Positions 10,855 to 29,143 of a stretch of DNA of 48,107 nt are shown here, in pieces. The stretch spans positions 1 to 48,107 of the forward strand of contig JAILDV010000044.1 in NCBI GenBank assembly GCA_024688885.1. Reading direction: 5' to 3'. The notes beneath the pieces are model-generated. The model made no database searches. It saw only the letters and a list, made by a program, of their open reading frames with translations, and had not been told where the DNA came from. This stretch comes from Bacteroidaceae bacterium. GTDB lineage: Bacteria > Bacteroidota > Bacteroidia > Bacteroidales > Bacteroidaceae. Numbering within the stretch: the stretch's first letter is position 1; the number at the start of each line of letters is the position of its first letter. The position numbers and the translations under genes were made by a program.

Positions 10855-11898
10855 TTAGTTGTTCTCAGGACGAAGCTGACGAACGACCTCTGCAGTGCGC
10901 CACATCTCAGAATCGTGGAGAGCAGCGAGCTCCTTCTCGAGACCTACGCGGTAGTCTGGCTTAGAGTTAGCGTCGATAGAGATCTGAGCCTCATGACCAG
11001 ACTTCACAGATGCATAGAGCTTCTCAACAACTGGCTTGATGGCATCGTGGAAAGGACCCATCCAGTCAAGAGCACCACGCTGTGCAGTAGTTGAGCAGTT
11101 AGCGTACATCCAGTCCATACCCTTCTGAGCGAAGAGAGGCATGAGTGACTGAGTGAGCTCTTCAACTGTCTCGTTGAATGCCTCAGATGGAGTGTGACCG
11201 TTCTCACGGAGCACTTCGTACTGAGCGAGGAGAAGGCCCTGGATTGCACCCATGAGTGAACCACGCTCGCCAGTGAGGTCAGAAGTGGCCTCGCGCTGGA
11301 AAGTCGTCTCGAACAGGTAGCCAGAACCGATACCGATACCAAGAGCAAGAGTACGGTCAAGTGCCTTGCCTGTAGCGTCCTGATATACTGCGTAAGAAGA
11401 GTTCAGGCCACGGCCTTCGAGGAACATAGTGCGGAGTGATGTACCAGAACCCTTAGGAGCCACCATGATGACGTCGATGTCCTTAGCAGGAACACAACCA
11501 GTGCGGTCGTTCCAAGTGATAGCGAAACCATGAGAGAAGTAGAGAGCCTTACCAGGAGTGAGGTACTTCTTGAGAGTTGGCCATACAGACATCACAGCAG
11601 CGTCTGAAAGCAGACACATCACGATAGTACCCTTCTCAGCAGCCTCCTCGATAGAGAAAAGAGTCTCACCAGGTACCCAACCATCCTTAATTGCCTTCTC
11701 GAAAGTCTTGCCCTGACGCTGACCGACGATTACGTTGAAACCGTTGTCGCGGAGGTTGCAAGCCTGACCAGGACCCTGAACGCCATAACCAATCACTGCG
11801 ATAGTCTCGTCCTTCAAAATCTCACGAGCTTTCTCCAGTGGGAATTCTTCACGTGTCATTACCTCTTCGATAACGCCACCAAAATTCATTTTTGCCAT
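10855..11898 (-). CDS. ilvC: Ketol-acid reductoisomerase
   Basis: IlvC converts 2-acetolactate to 2,3-dihydroxyisovalerate, and the isoleucine-branch analogue, using NADPH and magnesium. It is the second step of valine/isoleucine synthesis. The 347-residue protein has the N-terminal nucleotide-binding motif (IAVIGYGVQGPGQACNLRDN, about residues 33-52). It is followed by a segment matching the cofactor-specificity loop (GQRQGKTFEKA). The magnesium-binding acidic region includes DLTGERGSLMGAIQG, and the later ATTAQRGALDW segment belongs to the C-terminal knotted domain. It is the last gene of ilvD-ilvB-ilvN-ilvC, 59 bases after ilvN, and is closed by the terminator at 10792-10829. Confidence 0.97.
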   Translation of the reverse strand: MAKMNFGGVIEEVMTREEFPLEKAREILKDETIAVIGYGVQGPGQACNLRDNGFNVIVGQRQGKTFEKAIKDGWVPGETLFSIEEAAEKGTIVMCLLSDAAVMSVWPTLKKYLTPGKALYFSHGFAITWNDRTGCVPAKDIDVIMVAPKGSGTSLRTMFLEGRGLNSSYAVYQDATGKALDRTLALGIGIGSGYLFETTFQREATSDLTGERGSLMGAIQGLLLAQYEVLRENGHTPSEAFNETVEELTQSLMPLFAQKGMDWMYANCSTTAQRGALDWMGPFHDAIKPVVEKLYASVKSGHEAQISIDANSKPDYRVGLEKELAALHDSEMWRTAEVVRQLRPENN

Positions 11899-11957
11899 TT
11901 TGTTTTTGTTTTTATTTGTGCAAGGAAGATCCTTGCTGGTTATTATTATAAAATGTA

Positions 11958-12638
11958 TTATTTTGTAGCTTTTCTCTTTGCTTCACGAACAGCCAACCAT
12001 TCATCCAGATGTTCCACACGACTCTTGGTGATGCAGATACGTCCAGAACGGACAAACTGCAAGACACAATCCATCTTCTTCAACTGGTCGAAGAGGGAGA
12101 TGATTACATCGGGGAAACATGTGATCTCCACCACAGAGTAAGTGCTGTTCACCTCAATGATACGTGCATCATAAGAGCGCACCAAACTGCTGACTTCGCG
12201 GTTCTTCATCATCGCAGGCGTACTGAGTTTGAACAATGCCGTCTCATTGATGAACAATTCCTCGTCCGTATAGAAGTGCGCCTGAAGCACGTCAATACGT
12301 TTCTCCACCTGTGATGTAAGGATTCGAGCCATGCGTTCATCGCAGTAGGCTGTGACAGTGTACTTATGCGCACCAGGCGTGCTGGATGCACACACATTGA
12401 GCGACTCGATATTAACCTGACGACGTGTGAACACAGCCGTGATCTGTGAAAGCAGACCTGGCACATTCTCTGAATAAATCAGGAAAGTATAGAGCTTTGT
12501 TGTATCTTGTTCCATTGTTGGAGTTTGTACTTTTATTTCCTTTTCTTTGGCGGGATGCGCTCCGAGCAGACGCTCACATTTTCCGCATGAGGAACACTCG
12601 CCGCACTGACCACCAAAGGTTTTCTTTGTCGTTTGCAT
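11958..12638 (-). CDS. ilvN: Acetolactate synthase small subunit with Cys-rich N-terminal extension
   Basis: This regulatory subunit of acetohydroxyacid synthase senses valine through an ACT domain. The ACT fold begins at about residue 48 (LYTFLIYSENVPGLLSQ) with the typical FTRRQVNIESLNV motif. A second regulatory domain follows. The start at 12638 overlaps the ilvB stop by one base (TAATG), which argues for translational coupling at this start. The first 41 residues are then an extension not usual for the family, with four cysteines at residues 12, 15, 18 and 21 (CGECSSCGKC). Starting instead at Met42 would give 185 residues, close to the normal length. The CxxCxxCxxC motif suggests a metal or iron-sulfur site. 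That role is inferred only. Confidence 0.93.
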   Translation of the reverse strand: MQTTKKTFGGQCGECSSCGKCERLLGAHPAKEKEIKVQTPTMEQDTTKLYTFLIYSENVPGLLSQITAVFTRRQVNIESLNVCASSTPGAHKYTVTAYCDERMARILTSQVEKRIDVLQAHFYTDEELFINETALFKLSTPAMMKNREVSSLVRSYDARIIEVNSTYSVVEITCFPDVIISLFDQLKKMDCVLQFVRSGRICITKSRVEHLDEWLAVREAKRKATK

Positions 12639-14332
12639 TATAACTCAAGCAGCATCTCATCAATGTTAGCTCCAGGAGGAGTCATCGGAAGCACATTATC
12701 TTCTTCCTTGATGGCACACTGCAAAAGATATGGACCTGGTGTTGCCAACATCTCGGCAATCGCTGCGTCAAGGTCTTTACGTTCAATCACCGTCTTGGCT
12801 GGAATGCCATAACCCTTTGCTATCAATTCGTAGTTCGGATTGACCATCGGGGTGAATGAATAACGATGAGCGAAGAACATCTCCTGCCACTGGCGCACAT
12901 TACCAAGGAAGTTGTTGTTCAGGAGAATAATCTTCACAGGGGCTCCTTGTTCCATGATGGTGCCGAGTTCTTGAATCGTCATCTGCAAGCCACCATCGCC
13001 CACGAAAAGACAAACGGTTCTGTCGGGTGCTCCGAAAGTGGCACCGATGGCTGCAGGAAGTCCGAATCCCATCGTTCCCAGACCGCCTGAAGTGACCACC
13101 GAACGCTTTTGGGTGAACTTGAAGTAACGGCAAGCCATCAACTGGTTCTGTCCCACATCGGTCACCATGATGCCTTCGTTATGCGCTGCTTCGCTCACCT
13201 TGCGAATCACCTCACCCATCAAAAGTGGTCCTTCTGTTGGATGGAGTGCCTTGTCTATCACCTTCTCATATTCTTTCTCAGCGTATGGTTTGAAACCTTC
13301 AATCCAAGATGTATGCTTGGATGTATCCAACAATTTCGTCACAGCTGCAAGCGTTTCCTTACAGTTGCCCCACACTTTCAAATCAACAGGAACATTCTTG
13401 TTGAACTCTGCATGGTCTATGTCAAAATGGATAATCTTAGCCTGTTTGGCATAAGTGGCAAGATTGCCCGTCACACGGTCATCAAAACGCATGCCGACAG
13501 CAATGAGCAAGTCACACTGATTGGTCATCACATTAGGACCAAGATTACCGTGCATGCCCAAGATACCCATGTTCAGACGGTGGTCGGAAGGAATGGTGGA
13601 AAGTCCCATGAACGTAGTTCCGCATGGAAGGTCAGCCTTTTCCAAGAACGTGCGAAGTTCCTCTGTGGCATTACCCAGTTCCACACCTTGTCCCACCAGA
13701 ACAAAAGGTTTCACGCTGTTATTGATCATCTTGGCGGCACGCTCAATGTCCGTCATGTTCAAATCTGGATCAGGGTCATAACTGCGAATGAAATCCACCT
13801 CTGCAGGTTCAAACTCCACCATGCCCGTCTGCGCATTCTTGGCAAAGTCAAGCACCACAGGACCAGGGCGACCACTCTTGGCGATATAGAACGCACGAGC
13901 CACAGCCCAAGCCACATCTTCCGCACGACGAATCTGATAGCTCCACTTGCTGATAGGTGAAGTCACACCCACCACATCGACTTCCTGAAAGGCGTCTGTA
14001 CCCAACATAGCCACACCCACCTGACCACAGATGACCACCATCGGAGTGGAGTCAATCATGGCGTCAGCGATTCCTGTCACCGTATTGGTGGCGCCAGGAC
14101 CTGAGGTCACGATGGCACAACCCACTTTGCCACTCACACGGGCATAACCCTGAGCAGCATGAACGGCTCCCTGTTCATGGCGAACAAGAATGTGATTCAG
14201 TGTCTTCTTATGATCATAAAGTGCATCGTATGTAGGCATGATGCTTCCGCCTGGATAGCCGAAGAGGACATCCACCCCCTCATGCTCCAAAGCTCTCATC
14301 AAAGCCTCTGCACCTGTTATCTTTTCACTCAT
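12638..14332 (-). CDS. ilvB: Acetolactate synthase large (catalytic) subunit
   Basis: This thiamine-diphosphate enzyme condenses two pyruvates, or pyruvate and 2-ketobutyrate, to open the branched-chain amino acid pathway. The 564 residues show the full domain order. The N-terminal pyrimidine-binding domain has the catalytic Glu in RHEQGAVHAAQGYA (E53). The central FAD-associated domain follows, then the C-terminal cofactor domain with the GDG motif (FVGDGGLQMT) and the downstream NNNFLGNVRQWQEMFF motif. It is 52 bases downstream of ilvD and overlaps ilvN by one base, matching the standard operon in which both subunits are made together. Confidence 0.97.
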   Translation of the reverse strand: MSEKITGAEALMRALEHEGVDVLFGYPGGSIMPTYDALYDHKKTLNHILVRHEQGAVHAAQGYARVSGKVGCAIVTSGPGATNTVTGIADAMIDSTPMVVICGQVGVAMLGTDAFQEVDVVGVTSPISKWSYQIRRAEDVAWAVARAFYIAKSGRPGPVVLDFAKNAQTGMVEFEPAEVDFIRSYDPDPDLNMTDIERAAKMINNSVKPFVLVGQGVELGNATEELRTFLEKADLPCGTTFMGLSTIPSDHRLNMGILGMHGNLGPNVMTNQCDLLIAVGMRFDDRVTGNLATYAKQAKIIHFDIDHAEFNKNVPVDLKVWGNCKETLAAVTKLLDTSKHTSWIEGFKPYAEKEYEKVIDKALHPTEGPLLMGEVIRKVSEAAHNEGIMVTDVGQNQLMACRYFKFTQKRSVVTSGGLGTMGFGLPAAIGATFGAPDRTVCLFVGDGGLQMTIQELGTIMEQGAPVKIILLNNNFLGNVRQWQEMFFAHRYSFTPMVNPNYELIAKGYGIPAKTVIERKDLDAAIAEMLATPGPYLLQCAIKEEDNVLPMTPPGANIDEMLLEL

Positions 14333-22554: not shown

Positions 22555-23757
22555 TCAAGAAATAACTCTTCCCGGATAAGTCTCCAATGCTTTTCTCAAA
22601 ACGAAGAGAGCCCTCACAAGGTCTTCTTTTTTCAGAACGTAGGCAATACGCACCTCATTCTTTCCAGCACCAGGTGTGGTGTAGAAGCCTGCTGCAGGAG
22701 CCATCATCACCGTCTCACCTTCATAATTGAAATCAGAAAGGCACCAAGCACAGAACTTCTCACAATCGTCAACCGGCAGGCGAGCAACCGTGTAGAATGC
22801 ACCCATAGGGATAGGAGAATAAACACCAGGGATACGGTTCAAACCATCGATGAGACATTTGCGTCGTTCCACATATTCATCGTAGATGTCACGGCTATAC
22901 TCCTCTGGTGCATCAAGACTTGCCTCTGCAGCAATCTGTCCAATGAGTGGTGGAGAAAGACGAGCCTGACAGAACTTCATCACTGCCTTACGAATTTCCT
23001 CATTCTTCGTGATGAGCGCACCGATACGGATGCCACACTCACTGTATCGCTTTGAAACGGAGTCAATCAGCACCACATTCTGCTCGATGCCCTCGAGGTG
23101 ACAAGCGGAAATGTAGGGAGAACCTGTGTAGATGAACTCACGATACACCTCATCGGAGAAGAGATACAAATCATATTTCTTCACAAGGTCTCGAATCTGG
23201 TTCATCTCACGACGTGTATAGAGATAACCTGTGGGGTTGTTGGGGTTGCATATCAGAATAGCACGAGTGCGCTCATTGATGAGCTCCTCAAATTTCTCCA
23301 CTTTGGGAAGTGAGAAGCCCTCATCAATAGTGGTGGCAATGGTACGGATGACCGCACCTGCTGAGATGGCAAAAGCCATATAGTTTGCATATGCTGGCTC
23401 TGGCACAATAATCTCATCGCCAGGATTGAGGCAAGCCAAAAACGAGAACAACACAGCTTCCGAACCACCACTGGTGATGATGATGTCATCTGCCGTAAGG
23501 TTGATGTCATATTTCGCATAATAATTCACCAACTTCTCACGATAGCTGCGATAGCCCTGTGAGGGGCTGTACTCCAGAATCTTGCGGTCGATGTTCTTGA
23601 TGGCATCAAGTGCCACCTGCGGTGTGGGCAGGTCTGGTTGTCCAATGTTCAGATGATAGACTTTCACACCACGCTTCTTGGCTGCTTCTGCCAAAGGTGC
23701 CAATTTACGGATAGGCGAACTTGGCATCTCCGTTCCTCGTATGGATATTTTGGGCAT
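22555..23757 (-). CDS. PLP-dependent class I/II aminotransferase
   Basis: This 400-residue fold-type I enzyme resembles aspartate or aromatic aminotransferases. The visible residues are the SGGSEAV cofactor loop (about 96-102), the NPNNPTG motif (171-177), D202 in SDEVYREF, and the Schiff-base lysine K236 in SVSKRYS. The arginine for the substrate carboxylate falls in the C-terminal domain. The start at 23757 (MPKISIRGTEMPSSPIRKL) is chosen because the longer frame up to 23811 would begin inside the -7 element at 23809-23816. The exact amino acid substrate cannot be told from the sequence. It is followed by a LolC/E-type permease in the same direction. Confidence 0.9.
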   Translation of the reverse strand: MPKISIRGTEMPSSPIRKLAPLAEAAKKRGVKVYHLNIGQPDLPTPQVALDAIKNIDRKILEYSPSQGYRSYREKLVNYYAKYDINLTADDIIITSGGSEAVLFSFLACLNPGDEIIVPEPAYANYMAFAISAGAVIRTIATTIDEGFSLPKVEKFEELINERTRAILICNPNNPTGYLYTRREMNQIRDLVKKYDLYLFSDEVYREFIYTGSPYISACHLEGIEQNVVLIDSVSKRYSECGIRIGALITKNEEIRKAVMKFCQARLSPPLIGQIAAEASLDAPEEYSRDIYDEYVERRKCLIDGLNRIPGVYSPIPMGAFYTVARLPVDDCEKFCAWCLSDFNYEGETVMMAPAAGFYTTPGAGKNEVRIAYVLKKEDLVRALFVLRKALETYPGRVIS

Positions 23758-23808
23758 CTCTAAAAGATATAAAATGATTTTACCTCTGAAAAAATTACAA
23801 TAATCGTG

Positions 23809-23816
23809 CAAAGGTA
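23809..23816 (-). promoter_or_regulatory. -7 element for the aminotransferase gene
   Basis: TACCTTTG on the minus strand, followed by CACGATTATTG, lies 51 bases before the start at 23757. Confidence 0.6.
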
Positions 23817-23910
23817 GTGATTATTTTTCAATTAACTATCAGAACGCCCCTTTTATTTTCAGAGAAGAGGACTAAATGGGCACTTTTACCAATGGGCACA
23901 ATAGAAGAAA

Positions 23911-25830
23911 TCACAACGGCAGGGTGAGGACAAACCGGGCACCCTCTTTGTAGGATGAATCGAGGATGAAAGTACCACCCATCAACTCTGCCCCCCTACG
24001 GATGAGTGTAAGTCCGATGCCCAGTCCTTCACTGTAATAGTCGAGTTTAAGGAATGGGATGAAGACACGCTGGGCATCCTCTTCTGCAATACCGATACCT
24101 GTGTCGGTCACAATGAACTGGACATTCCGTTCATCCTTCAATCGGCACTCCATGGTGATGCTTCCCTGCTTAGTAAACTGATTGGCATTGTCAAGCATTT
24201 GCCGCAACATCTTCGGTAAGGCATCTGCGATGGCAGGAACTGTCAGTGAATCGGGCACTGAAGTCACGTAGTTAATCTTGACTGTATCTGGACATTTCAC
24301 CCTGACACCGCTGATAATCTTACGGCAAAGATCATTGCATGCGAACATTATGTTTTTCGGCACACTCGTCGTACTCTCCAAGAATGAAGCCGTAATCAAT
24401 TTGTCAACAATTCCCTTGATATTTAGAGAGTTCTCTTGCATAGCATCAAGAATGGTCTCCATCTCTTCTTCAGGAATCTCTTGATGTCCCATACGAAGCA
24501 CCTGTGAAAAACCGATGATGATATTAAGAGGAGTGCGCACCTGATGAGTCAAGTCCTGCATGAAGGCAGTCTTTTTCTCCAGTGCCACCTGTGCCTGCTG
24601 GTTGGCTTGGTCGAGTGCATCATTCCGTTTCTGTATCTCGGCATTCATCTGATGAATGTCCTGAATGTAGCCGGAGATGTATTGCTGCATGGTGCCGAAC
24701 ATGTTCTGTAACTGACCCACAGGGTCTATACGATCACTATGCGGCATCCTATCATCAAAATTACCTGCAGCGATATGGGTTGCCTGTATGGCCAATTGAT
24801 TGACTGGTTCTATAGCCTTATTCACTATCTTCCAACACATAAAGAACAACAGCAACAAGCCAAAGACTATGATGGCGAGGACGATGTAGAAGAGTCGGTT
24901 GTAACCTCGGAAAATCTCACTCTCCGGGTAGATGATGGCAAGACTCCACCCTGTTTGTGTCAACTGGCGATAGAACACATAACATGGCTCGTCGTCAAAA
25001 AGCATTTGACGCACACCCTCATGTCCCTCAATCATATCGGTGCCAAGCGCAATGAGGTCGGCATCAAGGTCGGGGTCTGTGTCTGAGAAAATGGTTTGAG
25101 ATACCAGTTTGGTGGTGTCAGGATGAATGTAATAGGTACCAGTACTGCCAAGCATGATGCAAAACGAACGTTCTGAAGGCATCTTCTCCATGATTGTCTG
25201 AGAAAGCCACTTAACAGAGAGGTCGGTAGAAATAACGCCGATGTACTGACCATTGTCATCAAGCAACGGACGACAATAAGATGTAATCATCTCACGTTCC
25301 TTACTTACCTCTTCTTCCACATAATAATCGAAGAAAGGATCCACCCAACATGGCTTGTTACGTTGTTTGGGCGTCGTGTACCATTCCATGTCGTAGTAGC
25401 GGAATTCTTCGTCACCCACCTGTTCCGTCACCACGGTGGCACCCTCATGGTGGGAATAAACGGAATAGTACTTACCTTTTTCTTGGAAGAAATTAGGTTC
25501 GAATGCGATGGAGCAGCCATTGAATATCGGGTTCTGCTTAATCATACGGTGAGAATAAGCTTCGATTGAGTCAGGCTGCAGATGAGTTCGGACAAGCCAT
25601 TCGGTATTATTGGTGGCAATCTCCACCTCATTCAGATATTCCGTCACACGCAGCACCGTATTGTTCAGCACCTGGGTTGCCCTTTGCATGGCATCCTGAC
25701 GCACATACTCACGGGTCTTGAAATAGAGAAATCCGAGAGATATGACGAAGATGATGACAGTAAAGGACATTATCAAGAGACCAAGTCTCAATGATAGTGA
25801 ATGCCGTATGTATGTGATTGGATTTTTCAT
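23911..25830 (-). CDS. Membrane sensor histidine kinase, Cache-HAMP-HisKA-HATPase
   Basis: The order in this 639-residue kinase is transmembrane helix 1 (about 12-34), a periplasmic double-Cache-like sensor (about 35-305), helix 2 (about 312-335), HAMP (about 336-390), a coiled coil, HisKA with phospho-acceptor H429 in DLTHQVRTPLN, and HATPase. The HATPase motifs are DNANQFTK (N box), DTGIGIAEED (G1) and GLGIGLTLIRRGAELMGG (G2). The start at 25830 (MKNPITYIRHS) is chosen because the longer frame above it runs through the preceding gene and gives unnatural sequence. It has no receiver domain and no response regulator is adjacent. It is the last gene of a minus-strand trio with a kinase-like partner 43 bases upstream and an NMT1-type binding protein. 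The ligand is unknown. Confidence 0.93.
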   Translation of the reverse strand: MKNPITYIRHSLSLRLGLLIMSFTVIIFVISLGFLYFKTREYVRQDAMQRATQVLNNTVLRVTEYLNEVEIATNNTEWLVRTHLQPDSIEAYSHRMIKQNPIFNGCSIAFEPNFFQEKGKYYSVYSHHEGATVVTEQVGDEEFRYYDMEWYTTPKQRNKPCWVDPFFDYYVEEEVSKEREMITSYCRPLLDDNGQYIGVISTDLSVKWLSQTIMEKMPSERSFCIMLGSTGTYYIHPDTTKLVSQTIFSDTDPDLDADLIALGTDMIEGHEGVRQMLFDDEPCYVFYRQLTQTGWSLAIIYPESEIFRGYNRLFYIVLAIIVFGLLLLFFMCWKIVNKAIEPVNQLAIQATHIAAGNFDDRMPHSDRIDPVGQLQNMFGTMQQYISGYIQDIHQMNAEIQKRNDALDQANQQAQVALEKKTAFMQDLTHQVRTPLNIIIGFSQVLRMGHQEIPEEEMETILDAMQENSLNIKGIVDKLITASFLESTTSVPKNIMFACNDLCRKIISGVRVKCPDTVKINYVTSVPDSLTVPAIADALPKMLRQMLDNANQFTKQGSITMECRLKDERNVQFIVTDTGIGIAEEDAQRVFIPFLKLDYYSEGLGIGLTLIRRGAELMGGTFILDSSYKEGARFVLTLPL

Positions 25831-25873
25831 CTGGCTTTGTCTTTTACGTTCTTGAAAGGCTTGACTCCGCAAG

Positions 25874-27373
25874 TCATTCCTGCGGTTGGGTTTCAGCACT
25901 CGGAGGGTTCGCCATTGAATCCACATTGCCCTGAGAGGCCTCCAGCAACTGGTTGAGCAGATTGGTGACGTCATCCGTGCTTGCCAACATGCGGTCAACG
26001 TGCTGTGCCATCTCTTCCTCAGAGTAGTTCTTGTATTCCGTACGAATCAAATCACTCTCATGAGCGATGACATCGACAGGATGCACCATCTGGTCAGTCA
26101 TGTTATTGATAACAGCGGTCTTGATGCGGTCATCCTCCTTCGCAAGTTCACTTGCCTTAAGCAGTTCCTCGTTACGTTGGGTCAAGGTCTCTGTGGAATG
26201 GCGTATCTTGTTGATATATTCAGACAAGGAATGCTGCATCTTGGAGAAGCTGCGTTGCAACTGTCCTATCTCGTCGCGACGTTTGCTGTCCGGTACTGAC
26301 ACATTGAAGTCACCCTCCGACATCTTCTCAGCCGATTCACCTAACTGCTTGAGTGGACGCAGATTGTAGCGAATAATGAATGCACAGAAGAACAGCAGCA
26401 GAAGGAGTCCAACGACGGTGATCGTTATCAGGTTTTTCTGCAAACGGTAATACGGCTCAAGAATGTCGTTCTCGGGACAAACAATGGCCACGCTCCAATC
26501 CGTGTGGGAGAGGGGTTTGTAGAATACATACTCGTCCTCGTCGCCATTATGTAGCACCTTATACCCACTTCCACCTGCTATCATCGCCTTACCAAGAGCA
26601 GTCCTCACAGAGTCGGGCTGCTCCAATGTCGGGGTGAAGATGGACTCATAAAACTGCTTGGTAGTGTCAGGATGCACCAGAAACGTGCCACCCTTACCGA
26701 GCAACATACTGTATGAATTGGGGAATGGCTTTGCTGCCAACACCGTCTGAGTGAACCACGGGAGAGCCAAGTCAACCGACAGGACACCCACCATCTTACC
26801 CTCCTTGTCGCGGATGGGCTGGCAATAAGAAGTAGTATATTCGTCTACAAGGATGCCGCCAACATCTGGGTCGTGGTACGGCTCCACCCAATAGGGTTTG
26901 TTGAGCAGTTTGGGGATGAGGTACCAATCCATGTAATAATACTCATACTTATCACTTCCCTCCTGCTCCGTCTGTATCGAGTCGCCTCCGTTGCGGGAAT
27001 AGGCTGAGAAATACCGTCCCTTCTCCTCATAGAAATAAGGTTCGAAAGCAATGGAACAGCCATAGAGGTTAGGGTTGTTCTCCAATATCTTTCTGCTGAA
27101 GGTAAACATGGAGTCAGGCGTTTCCAGATGCTGTTCCACCAACCATCTCATGTTGTCAGCCGCCACCTCTGCATCGTGCAGTGTATTACCCACATGCAAC
27201 AACGTACTCTCCAGTGTCTGCGTGGCTCTTTCCATGGCTTCCTCTCTCACTGCCTGACGAGAATAGTAGAACAGGATACCCTGAGCGGTAATGAAGATAA
27301 ACACCACACAGCCTACCACCCAGATACTGAGCCGGGCTGCAAGTGAACGCTGTATGTAGGTGATAAGATTCAT
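25874..27373 (-). CDS. Cache-HAMP receptor with degenerate kinase helix, no ATPase domain
   Basis: This 499-residue protein is a clear paralogue of the kinase that follows it. It has helix 1 (12-37), a Cache-like sensor with the same motifs (GCSIAFEPYFYEEKGRYFSAYS against GCSIAFEPNFFQEKGKYYSVYS, differing mainly in aromatic and acidic residues), helix 2 (about 313-335), HAMP and a coiled coil. Residues 418-480 align with the kinase HisKA region, but NMTDQMVHP stands where the kinase has DLTHQVRTP. The phospho-acceptor His is therefore replaced by D427, and the protein stops where the ATPase domain would begin. It cannot be an active kinase. It could pair with the kinase as a heterodimer or act as a regulatory receptor. 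It starts 17 bases after the binding-protein gene. Confidence 0.88.
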   Translation of the reverse strand: MNLITYIQRSLAARLSIWVVGCVVFIFITAQGILFYYSRQAVREEAMERATQTLESTLLHVGNTLHDAEVAADNMRWLVEQHLETPDSMFTFSRKILENNPNLYGCSIAFEPYFYEEKGRYFSAYSRNGGDSIQTEQEGSDKYEYYYMDWYLIPKLLNKPYWVEPYHDPDVGGILVDEYTTSYCQPIRDKEGKMVGVLSVDLALPWFTQTVLAAKPFPNSYSMLLGKGGTFLVHPDTTKQFYESIFTPTLEQPDSVRTALGKAMIAGGSGYKVLHNGDEDEYVFYKPLSHTDWSVAIVCPENDILEPYYRLQKNLITITVVGLLLLLFFCAFIIRYNLRPLKQLGESAEKMSEGDFNVSVPDSKRRDEIGQLQRSFSKMQHSLSEYINKIRHSTETLTQRNEELLKASELAKEDDRIKTAVINNMTDQMVHPVDVIAHESDLIRTEYKNYSEEEMAQHVDRMLASTDDVTNLLNQLLEASQGNVDSMANPPSAETQPQE

Positions 27374-27390
27374 TATACTATGTCTTTTGT

Positions 27391-28338
27391 TTATTTCCCC
27401 ATCAGTTCGTTATACGTCACGTCCCTGTCAATCATGCCAAAATCCTTCATCAGTGTGCTGGCTTTCTTCACCATATCGGGGCGCACACGGAATTCACGCT
27501 TGCCAGAATTGGGATCTTTCTGCAGACGAAGAATCTCCTCCAGCATCATCCGTTGGATGAAACGGTTCGTCTGCACATGCCCATCCCGCACATATTTCAT
27601 CACGATATCCAATGCTTCTTCCTGATGAGTGGCAGCCCACTCCCATCCCCTCTTGCTGGCTTCTGCAAAACGCTTCACCTGGTCACGGTGAGAGATATAA
27701 TAATCTCGCTTCACATACACCCCGTTTTCTTGAATATTGTAGCCGTTGTCCTTAAAACGGAAAATACACTCCTCTGGCATGTCGAATCCAGCCTGCTTCA
27801 GTAACAGATACTCGCTATAACTCACCATAGTCATCGCATCGACACCACCAGAAAGAAACACGTTAATATTTCCCGTATAGAACACCCATTCATAGTTCAT
27901 CTTTTGTTTCCTGTCCAAAATGAATGACAGATAGTTTGGCTCTGACATATACACAGCCAACCTATCCCGCTTCTGCATTAACGGATTCTTACCCCATCGC
28001 GATACGATGACGTAACTGCTATTCATCGAAGTCTGGAAAATATTCACCAGTGGTTTTCCGCTGGCAATGATGTCGATAGCGGACATCAGCGAAAATAAAC
28101 TAGCATCACACTCGTCTGTATCCATACGATAATGCACTGAAGCTGACAAGGAATGGTAGTGCATTTCCACATCCAGTCCCGCTTCCTTGTAAAACCCTTT
28201 CTCTTTCGCCACATAATACCCGGCAAATTCTGCCTGAGGTGTCCAGTTCATAGTAAGCACAAACTTCTCCGCCTTCAGCATACAGGAACAAAACATCAGT
28301 ATGCTGAAAAGGTAAAAGCCTATTTTGTGATTTCTCAT
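27391..28338 (-). CDS. NMT1/THI5-type solute-binding protein
   Basis: This 315-residue protein has an N-terminal signal that may be a lipoprotein signal (FCSC at residues 16-19). The mature part starts with the hallmark of NMT1/THI5-like periplasmic binding proteins, MNWTPQAEFAGYYVAKEKG and onward through FYKEAGLDV. Further family features are CDASLFSLMSAIDIIASGKPL and a second lobe ending about residue 300. Relatives bind thiamin-pyrimidine precursors, nitrate, sulfonates or other small molecules. No ABC permease or ATPase is next to it. Instead two Cache-HAMP sensor genes follow at 17 and 43 bases, which suggests it presents a ligand to the sensors rather than to a transporter. The ligand is unknown. 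Confidence 0.88.
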   Translation of the reverse strand: MRNHKIGFYLFSILMFCSCMLKAEKFVLTMNWTPQAEFAGYYVAKEKGFYKEAGLDVEMHYHSLSASVHYRMDTDECDASLFSLMSAIDIIASGKPLVNIFQTSMNSSYVIVSRWGKNPLMQKRDRLAVYMSEPNYLSFILDRKQKMNYEWVFYTGNINVFLSGGVDAMTMVSYSEYLLLKQAGFDMPEECIFRFKDNGYNIQENGVYVKRDYYISHRDQVKRFAEASKRGWEWAATHQEEALDIVMKYVRDGHVQTNRFIQRMMLEEILRLQKDPNSGKREFRVRPDMVKKASTLMKDFGMIDRDVTYNELMGK

Positions 28339-28414: not shown

Positions 28415-29143
28415 TCATTTCTCCGTCGTCTCTTCTTCCCTCATAGGGAACCGTCCCAGCCATTTCATCTGTCGAATGCACCATGACTGTCGACGGTACA
28501 TATAATTAGTCGGTGATGCCGAGTTGAACTTGAGTGGGTTGGGCAATGTAATGGCAATCATCGCGCACTGGTTTCTTGTCAAGTCTTTAGCATGACAGCC
28601 GAAATGCTCCTGCGCCACTGCTTCTGCACCATAAATGCCGTCGCCCATTTCAATCGTGTTCAGATACACCTCCATGATGCGCTGCTTGTCCCACATAAAC
28701 TCCATCAGCACCGTGAAGTAAGCTTCCACACCCTTGCGGAACCACGCCAGCTTTCCTGATGAGGAGGTGGGAAAGAGGAACACGTTCTTTGCCGTCTGTT
28801 GACTGATGGTGGAGCCACCACGAAAACGCTTGCCTTCCTCACGCTCATTAATCACCTTCTGAATGGCTTCCCAATCGAAGCCGTTGTGAATAAGGAAATT
28901 CTGATCTTCGCAAGACATAACCGCCAAGGGTAAGTCTGCCGACATTTCCTCAAGCGGCACCCACGAATGGTGCCATCTTATTTTCTCACCCCTGCTCACC
29001 TGCTCGTATGCCCTGATAAACATCAGCGGTGAGGTATAGACAGGGAGATAGCGGAACATCAACACCAGAAGGATACTTCCCGCCAATAAGACGATGAACA
29101 TCCACTTCACTATATTTCCCACCTTGGAAAGGAACTTCCCCAT
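28415..29143 (-). CDS. mtgA: Monofunctional biosynthetic peptidoglycan transglycosylase
   Basis: This 242-residue GT51 enzyme polymerises lipid II into glycan strands without a transpeptidase domain. It has one N-terminal membrane helix (about 14-32), then the five GT51 motifs. These include SCEDQNFLIHNGFDWEAI with the catalytic Glu, the RGGSTISQQTAKNVFL motif, the RKGVEAYFTVLMEFMW segment, and RIMEVYLNTIEMGDGIYGAEAVAQEHFG. It lies between the OmpA-family lipoprotein (68 bases before) and the binding-protein gene (76 bases after) on the same strand. Confidence 0.95.
   Translation of the reverse strand: MGKFLSKVGNIVKWMFIVLLAGSILLVLMFRYLPVYTSPLMFIRAYEQVSRGEKIRWHHSWVPLEEMSADLPLAVMSCEDQNFLIHNGFDWEAIQKVINEREEGKRFRGGSTISQQTAKNVFLFPTSSSGKLAWFRKGVEAYFTVLMEFMWDKQRIMEVYLNTIEMGDGIYGAEAVAQEHFGCHAKDLTRNQCAMIAITLPNPLKFNSASPTNYMYRRQSWCIRQMKWLGRFPMREEETTEK

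Follow-up and report, generated by a model that had tools for sequence, protein, structure and literature searches.

A conserved operon of rumen Prevotella-type bacteria encoding an NMT1-family binding protein, a pseudokinase receptor and a histidine kinase

A three-gene operon and its conservation

The window, i.e., the whole 48,107-nucleotide stretch analysed here (contig JAILDV010000044.1 of the Bacteroidaceae bacterium assembly GCA_024688885.1; contig 14 of a 3.03 Mb genome that is 98% complete), carries a three-gene operon that is conserved in rumen Prevotella-type bacteria. Its genes, all on the minus strand, encode in order a solute-binding protein (SBP) of the NMT1/THI5 type (315 amino acids; positions 27391 to 28338), a pseudokinase receptor (PSK, 499 amino acids; 25874 to 27373) and a complete histidine kinase (HK, 639 amino acids; 23911 to 25830), with gaps of 17 and 43 bp. 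We consider it moderately probable that the trio is a dedicated sensory operon, in which the ligand-loaded SBP would dock on the Cache receptors and the PSK would gate the HK as a hetero-oligomer.

A set of 61 genomes was searched with the SBP and again with the HK. The SBP gave matches (E cut-off 0.001) in 24 genomes, 17 of which hold orthologues (at least 59% identity), and these are also the 17 genomes that hold the HK orthologues (at least 48% identity, the top 17 rows of the HK search). In addition to the window, 16 loci were read; every one of them has the order SBP-PSK-HK on one strand, with an aminotransferase gene downstream in 15 and a transglycosylase gene upstream in eight. A scan of named contigs for SBP relatives (the best 80 of 539 relatives; loci are labelled L, genomes G, the window's own genome being G000) contains the trio in 23 loci, whose genomes overlap with the 17 mentioned above. 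The open reading frame (ORF) of a Cache receptor directly follows the SBP gene in 78 of the 80 named loci, and the other two (L147 and L156) have the SBP at the very end of the contig. When scored on mechanical ORF starts, 4-bp overlaps are present at the PSK-HK junction in 14 of the 23 trio loci and at the SBP-PSK junction in 11. Among named loci, the closest comes from the uncultured rumen Prevotellaceae genome RUG204; its SBP shares 97% identity with that of the window. Chance adjacency is ruled out by the shared genomes, the constant order and strand and the SBP-Cache neighbourhood. An earlier sequence-only reading of the window had made its proposal depend on conserved adjacency of the three families in other genomes, and the presence of the trio in 17 of 61 genomes and 23 of 80 named loci bears this out.

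The SBP matches PF09084 (E 2.2e-20) and is probably periplasmic, with an N-terminal hydrophobic signal segment at residues 4-20. The PSK is a paralogue of the HK, with ~39% identity over some 480 residues. The PSK is composed of a transmembrane (TM) segment, a dCache domain, a second TM segment, a HAMP domain and a DHp-like hairpin (Pfam: MCP-like_PDC_1 1.7e-20, dCache_1 3.7e-13, HAMP 5.6e-14), with a HisKA match that stays below threshold (E 0.0025, 18.3 bits against a cut-off of 26.9) and no HATPase domain detected by Pfam. The HK shares the TM-dCache-TM-HAMP arrangement, followed by HisKA and HATPase_c domains (MCP-like_PDC_1 1.5e-18, dCache_1 3.2e-12, HAMP 1.2e-5, HisKA 1.3e-10, HATPase_c 7.2e-18); its start was placed at 25830, the longest mechanical ORF beginning at 25998. 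The coordinates and gaps agree exactly with the sequence-only reading, and the domains confirm it; it had described a binding protein followed by two paralogous Cache-HAMP proteins, the second being a full histidine kinase.

A pseudokinase paired with an intact kinase

The HK has all the features expected of a HisKA kinase: the phospho-acceptor His429 (motif THQVRTP, codon at 24544 to 24546 on the minus strand) and the N, G1 and G2 boxes. H429, N548, D576, G578, G580, G602, G604 and G606 are invariant in 23 of 23 alignment rows. The PSK has neither the acceptor histidine nor the ATPase domain. In its degenerate DHp region (residues 416-484; 25922 to 26128, minus strand), the acceptor column is occupied by D427, and no histidine was found in this column in 31 PSKs and the window, in 24 alignment rows or in 13 further PSKs, these three sets overlapping in part. 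A histidine at position 431 of the window's PSK is found in only four of the 24 rows. A profile of PSK orthologues over residues 408-490 matches the DHp region of HK853 (2c2a, E 3.2e-6), and in profile searches chemoreceptor helices also match stretches that overlap these residues.

The DHp-like part of the PSK is under purifying selection and is constrained less than the DHp of the HK, with dN/dS values of 0.04-0.25 (20 computable of 25 pairs) against 0-0.18 (13 pairs). The two paralogues differ in the part that is best conserved. The dCache domain is the most conserved part of the PSK (residues ~46-300; 26474 to 27238, minus strand), with a mean identity to the window of 69.0% over 23 orthologues against 55.6% for the HK Cache, whereas identity in the DHp region is 52.6% for the PSK and 66.1% for the HK. 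This pattern fits a PSK that acts as the main receptor and an HK that provides the main output. Over 20 loci (the near-duplicates L098 and L122 excluded, as was L127 for its short SBP; L100 absent, its kinase running off the contig), distance matrices correlate best overall between the two DHp regions (r 0.92), then between the Caches (0.90); the SBP has its highest correlation with the Cache of the PSK (0.89). We take these correlations as weak, common descent explaining much of them.

The genus also has tandem PSK-HK pairs with no SBP next to them, among other places on contig 61 of the window's genome, and the pairing is repeated in two further families within the genus. One sister family, grouped by its DHp motif, includes L078 (7775-11172 on G000 contig 61), L081, L082, L084, L086, L087, L093, L094, L096, L097, L211-L218 and L223. 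In 16 of 19 loci of this family the acceptor histidine of the HK is replaced by L, I, M or R, with the N, G1 and G2 boxes retained. The PSK has a histidine four residues (one helical turn) upstream in 19 of 19 loci, as has the HK in 13 of those 16. It is thus possible that the acceptor of this family has been relocated or is shared. Under the most elaborate reading of the trio, taken up below and quite improbable, the roles would be divided further still in this family: with a 'kinase' lacking its own histidine beside a PSK with an upstream one, one paralogue may phosphorylate the relocated histidine of the other.

Cache domains and their relationships

The PSK profile matches the Cache structures 3li8 and 3lib, and the Caches of both PSK and HK resemble ligand-binding dCache domains (3lib, PacA, TlpQ, PctD), several of which are amine receptors. 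W150, Y151 and an Asp near position 201/203 are invariant. The arginine R126 of PctA is an amino-acid contact, according to the available part of PMC10104139. At this position, placed by eye, our proteins have a methionine within an M-D/E-W-Y stretch (M148 in the PSK, where it is invariant), and on this placement the arginine of dCache_1AA amino-acid sensors is absent.

In a Cache tree built by a quick method (SH-aLRT support only, 25 of 81 inner branches open), the HK Caches of trios and pairs group in a single clade (SH-aLRT 100); its sister group consists of the SBP-linked SpoIIE receptors (100). The PSKs of the pairs also form one clade (95); those of the trios lie near Cache-TPR receptors, at forks that stay open. 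With this topology, an origin of the PSK-HK pair by one simple duplication is not shown.

An importer-type binding protein without a permease of the usual family

The SBP is the only PF09084 protein of its genome. Its AlphaFold2 model (pLDDT 89.9) has as nearest folds in Foldseek the thiamin-bound SBP 4nmy and the formyl-aminopyrimidine SBP 3ix1 (TM-score 0.76-0.78). As identity to these proteins is 16-17%, the comparison establishes the fold and not the ligand, and a thiamin-pyrimidine-like ligand would have support at the level of the fold only. Rfam gave no match in the window at the gathering score, hence no TPP riboswitch that would hint at thiamin. An F-A-G-Y-Y type motif of the SBP is present in 106 of the 108 relatives found; of the two exceptions, one has no N-terminus and one has FAGFY instead.

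Most NMT1 proteins serve as SBPs of importers. The present SBP has the fold of this group and lacks a BPD_transp_1-type permease with its ATPase, either linked or in the genome: BPD_transp_1 (PF00528) has no match in the window's genome, a search in which 14 of 14 controls were detected. The family is also absent from 15 of the 17 trio genomes (G007 has one such protein and G018 three), from 19 of the 23 genomes that the named trio loci come from (it is present for L107, L110, L117 and L125) and from 23 of the 30 genomes behind L098-L127. The absence from the window's own genome and from 15 of 17 trio genomes points to a probable role of the SBP purely in signalling, and the ABC importer reading was rejected for the window's genome. 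The sequence-only reading had noted no ABC permease next to the binding protein; for the BPD_transp_1 family, the absence extends to the whole of the window's genome and of most trio genomes.

The same reading would have been refuted by an ABC partner consistently adjacent to the SBP elsewhere. No such partner recurs in the 80 near loci. The ORFs of these loci gave no blastp match to five proteins taken at PF00528 hits, and phmmer with the same five proteins gave one weak match, a 911-residue ABC-like gene 2.3 kb upstream in L175. ABC sets are found in the wider neighbourhood of the distant loci L057 and L058, from other families of the order. Downstream of the L057 SBP and on the same strand are BPD_transp_2, ABC_tran and a PF04392 binding protein; this set has a binding protein of its own, but a link to the L057 SBP is possible. 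BPD_transp_2 and ABC_tran lie near L058 on the other strand. L210, a further NMT1 gene, adjoins an ABC ATPase.

One input, exchangeable outputs

The SBP-Cache input is followed by different output modules. In five of the 80 loci (L111-L114, L116), the SBP precedes one long protein of the type Cache-TPR-like-HisKA-HATPase_c, in some of which the TPR match is weak or absent. The receptor kinase of L111 (7918-10938, Xylanibacter ruminicola) has a lipobox-like stretch between the Cache and the TPR-like part, as do those of L112-L114 and L116. L121 and L123 present an SBP followed by Cache-TPR-SpoIIE, and the remaining 50 loci are of the SpoIIE type, or cut or broken.

A further SBP of the same genus, 47-50% identical to the first, stands before a Cache-HAMP-SpoIIE-HATPase_c_2 receptor, whose Cache-HAMP input is 45-51% identical to PSK and HK, and then a STAS protein. 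In L048 (5177-9951) and its kin L052, L053, L143, L151 and L154, these three genes are followed in a row by a gene with a RelA_SpoT domain, and such operons would link a partner-switching receptor to a possible alarmone enzyme. The SpoIIE-type receptors of L050 (8958-9995) and L051 (7990-9925) look interrupted, their open frames covering only parts of the domains. L058 encodes an SBP, a Cache-HAMP-GAF-HK protein, a receiver-SpoIIE protein and an RsbW-like ATPase. Receiver-SpoIIE proteins encoded downstream of SBP-receptor operons (L157, 5559-6722; L058, 5106-6332) possibly bridge a kinase to partner switching.

In a wider sample of the phylum, NMT1 matches at 1e-15 are present in 51 of 198 genomes. 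Frames longer than 600 residues occur in eight of these genomes, and all eight combine NMT1 with HATPase_c (L191-L198); L060 and L061 are two more NMT1-kinase fusions. In L206, L207 and L208 the SBP adjoins Cache proteins.

The linked response regulator whose recurrence the sequence-only reading had asked about was not found. A blastp search with six receivers detected a receiver in the flank of only one of the 23 trio loci (L106), about 6 kb away and on the other strand. The window's genome holds 10 receivers and 12 HisKA matches, and no specific partner regulator for the HK was found among these receivers. A stand-alone 141-residue receiver on contig 30 was considered and rejected: it is present in all 17 trio genomes and in 34 of the 37 genomes of the genus group regardless of the trio, and so has no specific link to it. 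This receiver lies beside a TackOD1-domain protein (L178, 3754-5707 on G000 contig 30). On contig 41 of the same genome (around 11461-13935), an open frame of about 1580 residues matches HisKA twice and has no receiver match at this place.

Genomic surroundings and promoter-like elements

The immediate neighbours of the trio in the window include neither an ABC component nor a response regulator, as the sequence-only reading had stated. They are a monofunctional transglycosylase gene 76 bp before the SBP (28415 to 29143, minus strand; TIGR02070), possibly co-transcribed with the trio, and the downstream syntenic anchor, a PLP aminotransferase gene (22555 to 23811, minus strand; NF005744). Both lie outside the core. 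A comparison of the window with plasmids by megablast gave no match.

Of 20 trio loci checked, 13 carry the element TAnnTTTG, the Bacteroides -7 promoter consensus, no more than 250 bp upstream of the SBP, a count made without shuffle control. Five of the loci without it, L099-L103, have the transglycosylase upstream; L107 and L119 lack it as well. As it is also absent from the 900 bp upstream of the window's SBP, the trio may be read through from the transglycosylase here. A promoter-like element of the aminotransferase (23809-23838) matches the pattern with one mismatch. Over the whole window, the pattern TTG-N19-TAnnTTTG (at most one mismatch) occurs 32 times against 16.85 expected. A sigma-70 scan of the trio region did not exceed shuffled sequences (16 promoter-like elements against a mean of 12.8, and three terminator-like elements against a mean of 6.0).

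Proposed mechanism and alternative explanations

We propose that the SBP would capture a small ligand in the periplasm and hand none of it to an ABC importer. Once loaded, it would dock on the dCache domain of one or both downstream receptors, most likely that of the PSK first. Since the PSK has neither acceptor histidine nor ATP-binding domain, it could not itself pass on the signal and would act through the HK, most likely as a PSK-HK hetero-oligomer via the HAMP and DHp helices. In this complex the PSK would set the kinase/phosphatase balance of the HK, which would in turn phosphorylate an unlinked response regulator. The co-occurrence of the genes in the same 17 of 61 genomes, the SBP-Cache adjacency in 78 of 80 loci, the NMT1-kinase fusions and the exchange of outputs behind a constant input argue for this mechanism, as do the lack of BPD_transp_1 in most trio genomes, the purifying selection on a DHp-like part that has no acceptor histidine, and the recurrence of PSK-HK pairs. 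We find quite improbable its most elaborate form, a four-layer sensor in which the import-type SBP would be the true ligand receptor, the pseudokinase an adaptor and the active kinase the output, in an obligate hetero-oligomer.

Several observations weigh against the proposed mechanism. Gene adjacency is no proof of binding between SBP and kinase, and neither AgtS nor AruS binds the SBP of its own gene neighbourhood, as stated in the accessible text of PMC11113362. Both Caches keep the aromatic and Asp residues of small-ligand pockets and may bind a ligand directly. In the PSK, the DHp-like region is the least conserved folded part (52.6% against 69.0% for the Cache); its dN/dS is above that of the PSK Cache in the subgroup L117-L127, and the AlphaFold2 model of the protein is moderate (pLDDT 74.8, pTM 0.50). 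BPD_transp_1 proteins occur in two of the 17 trio genomes and four of the 23 named-trio genomes, and the permease negatives are limited to this family.

An HK working as an ordinary homodimer, with the PSK as a separate SBP receptor that competes for the loaded SBP (a decoy) or as a relic, is in our view unlikely. The completeness of the HK, the loss of both histidine and ATPase domain from the PSK and the faster evolution of its DHp-like region compared to that of the HK could be explained in this way. Against it stand the PSK-HK pairs of two further families in the genus, the purifying selection on the DHp-like part and the 4-bp overlap of the two genes at 14 of the 23 trio loci. It also seems rather unlikely that the Caches sense small ligands themselves, the SBP only buffering or concentrating the ligand without touching the receptors. 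Their resemblance to ligand-binding dCaches, including amine receptors, and the invariant W150, Y151 and Asp would agree with direct sensing, and SBPs encoded nearby need not bind a kinase (PMC11113362, in the part available). However, the contact arginine of PctA is a methionine in the by-eye placement, the SBP-Cache adjacency survives changes of output, and NMT1 is itself the sensor in the fused kinases. Finally, the SBP could serve as a normal part of an importer, working with an unlinked permease, and lie beside the sensors incidentally. Such a role would be usual for an NMT1 protein, and the ABC genes near L057 (with their PF04392 SBP) and L058, together with the ABC-like gene in one of the 80 near loci (L175), point in the same direction; the absence of BPD_transp_1 from the genome and from 15 of 17 trio genomes, and of blastp matches to the five PF00528-hit proteins in the 80 loci, makes it very improbable.

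Relation to known systems

The trio resembles CuaDSR, XylFII-LytS and LuxP-LuxQ (LuxQ has a double-PDC sensor) in that a non-transport SBP is encoded beside a membrane kinase. It differs from them by its NMT1-family SBP, its pseudokinase third member and the absence of a linked response regulator. Compared with three-component systems in general, the adjacency of the SBP gene to kinase genes is conserved and the linked regulator is missing. The NMT1-kinase fusions similarly use an NMT1 domain as extracytoplasmic kinase input, in one chain without Cache receptor, whereas the SBP of the trio is separate and its receptors have Cache domains. The SpoIIE/STAS operons of the L048 type share a related SBP and Cache-HAMP input with the trio, but their output is a PP2C phosphatase with an anti-sigma-type kinase domain and a STAS protein (partner switching), not a kinase.

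The activation of kinases by SBPs is established, the genes lying together in 10 of 11 characterised couples according to the available sections of PMC11113362. In CuaDSR the SBP binds the extracellular part of the kinase (available part of PMC10384115), and SBP-fold sensor domains inside kinases were noted earlier (PMC3831638, likewise in part). Pseudokinase partners are also known in principle, the accessible portion of PMC9491836 describing a catalytically inactive kinase-like protein that is coupled to an active kinase. This is the case for DivL and for the ChrS pseudokinase variant with HrrS, as far as the available text goes. Unlike the trio these are not SBP-linked, and in the same text a heterodimer of truncated ChrS was not detected; by contrast, the PSK of the trio has no CA domain at all and persists as a stable gene in many genomes. 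The statement of the sequence-only reading that no described system has this three-part layout therefore needs narrowing: three-component systems of SBP and kinase are known, CuaDSR among them, and it is the pseudokinase as third member that is a new element of this known design. In the open-licence literature searched, no paper describing an NMT1 SBP together with a pseudokinase-kinase pair turned up.

In the proposed mechanism, a bacterium without a matching import permease would re-use an importer-type binding protein purely for sensing. The wiring of one SBP-Cache input to a kinase, to a pseudokinase with a kinase or to PP2C/partner switching offers a natural series on Cache-HAMP transmission, and the PSK, which is conserved, gene-encoded and paired, is a testable pseudo-histidine-kinase partner. 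The hosts are dominant fibre degraders of the rumen.

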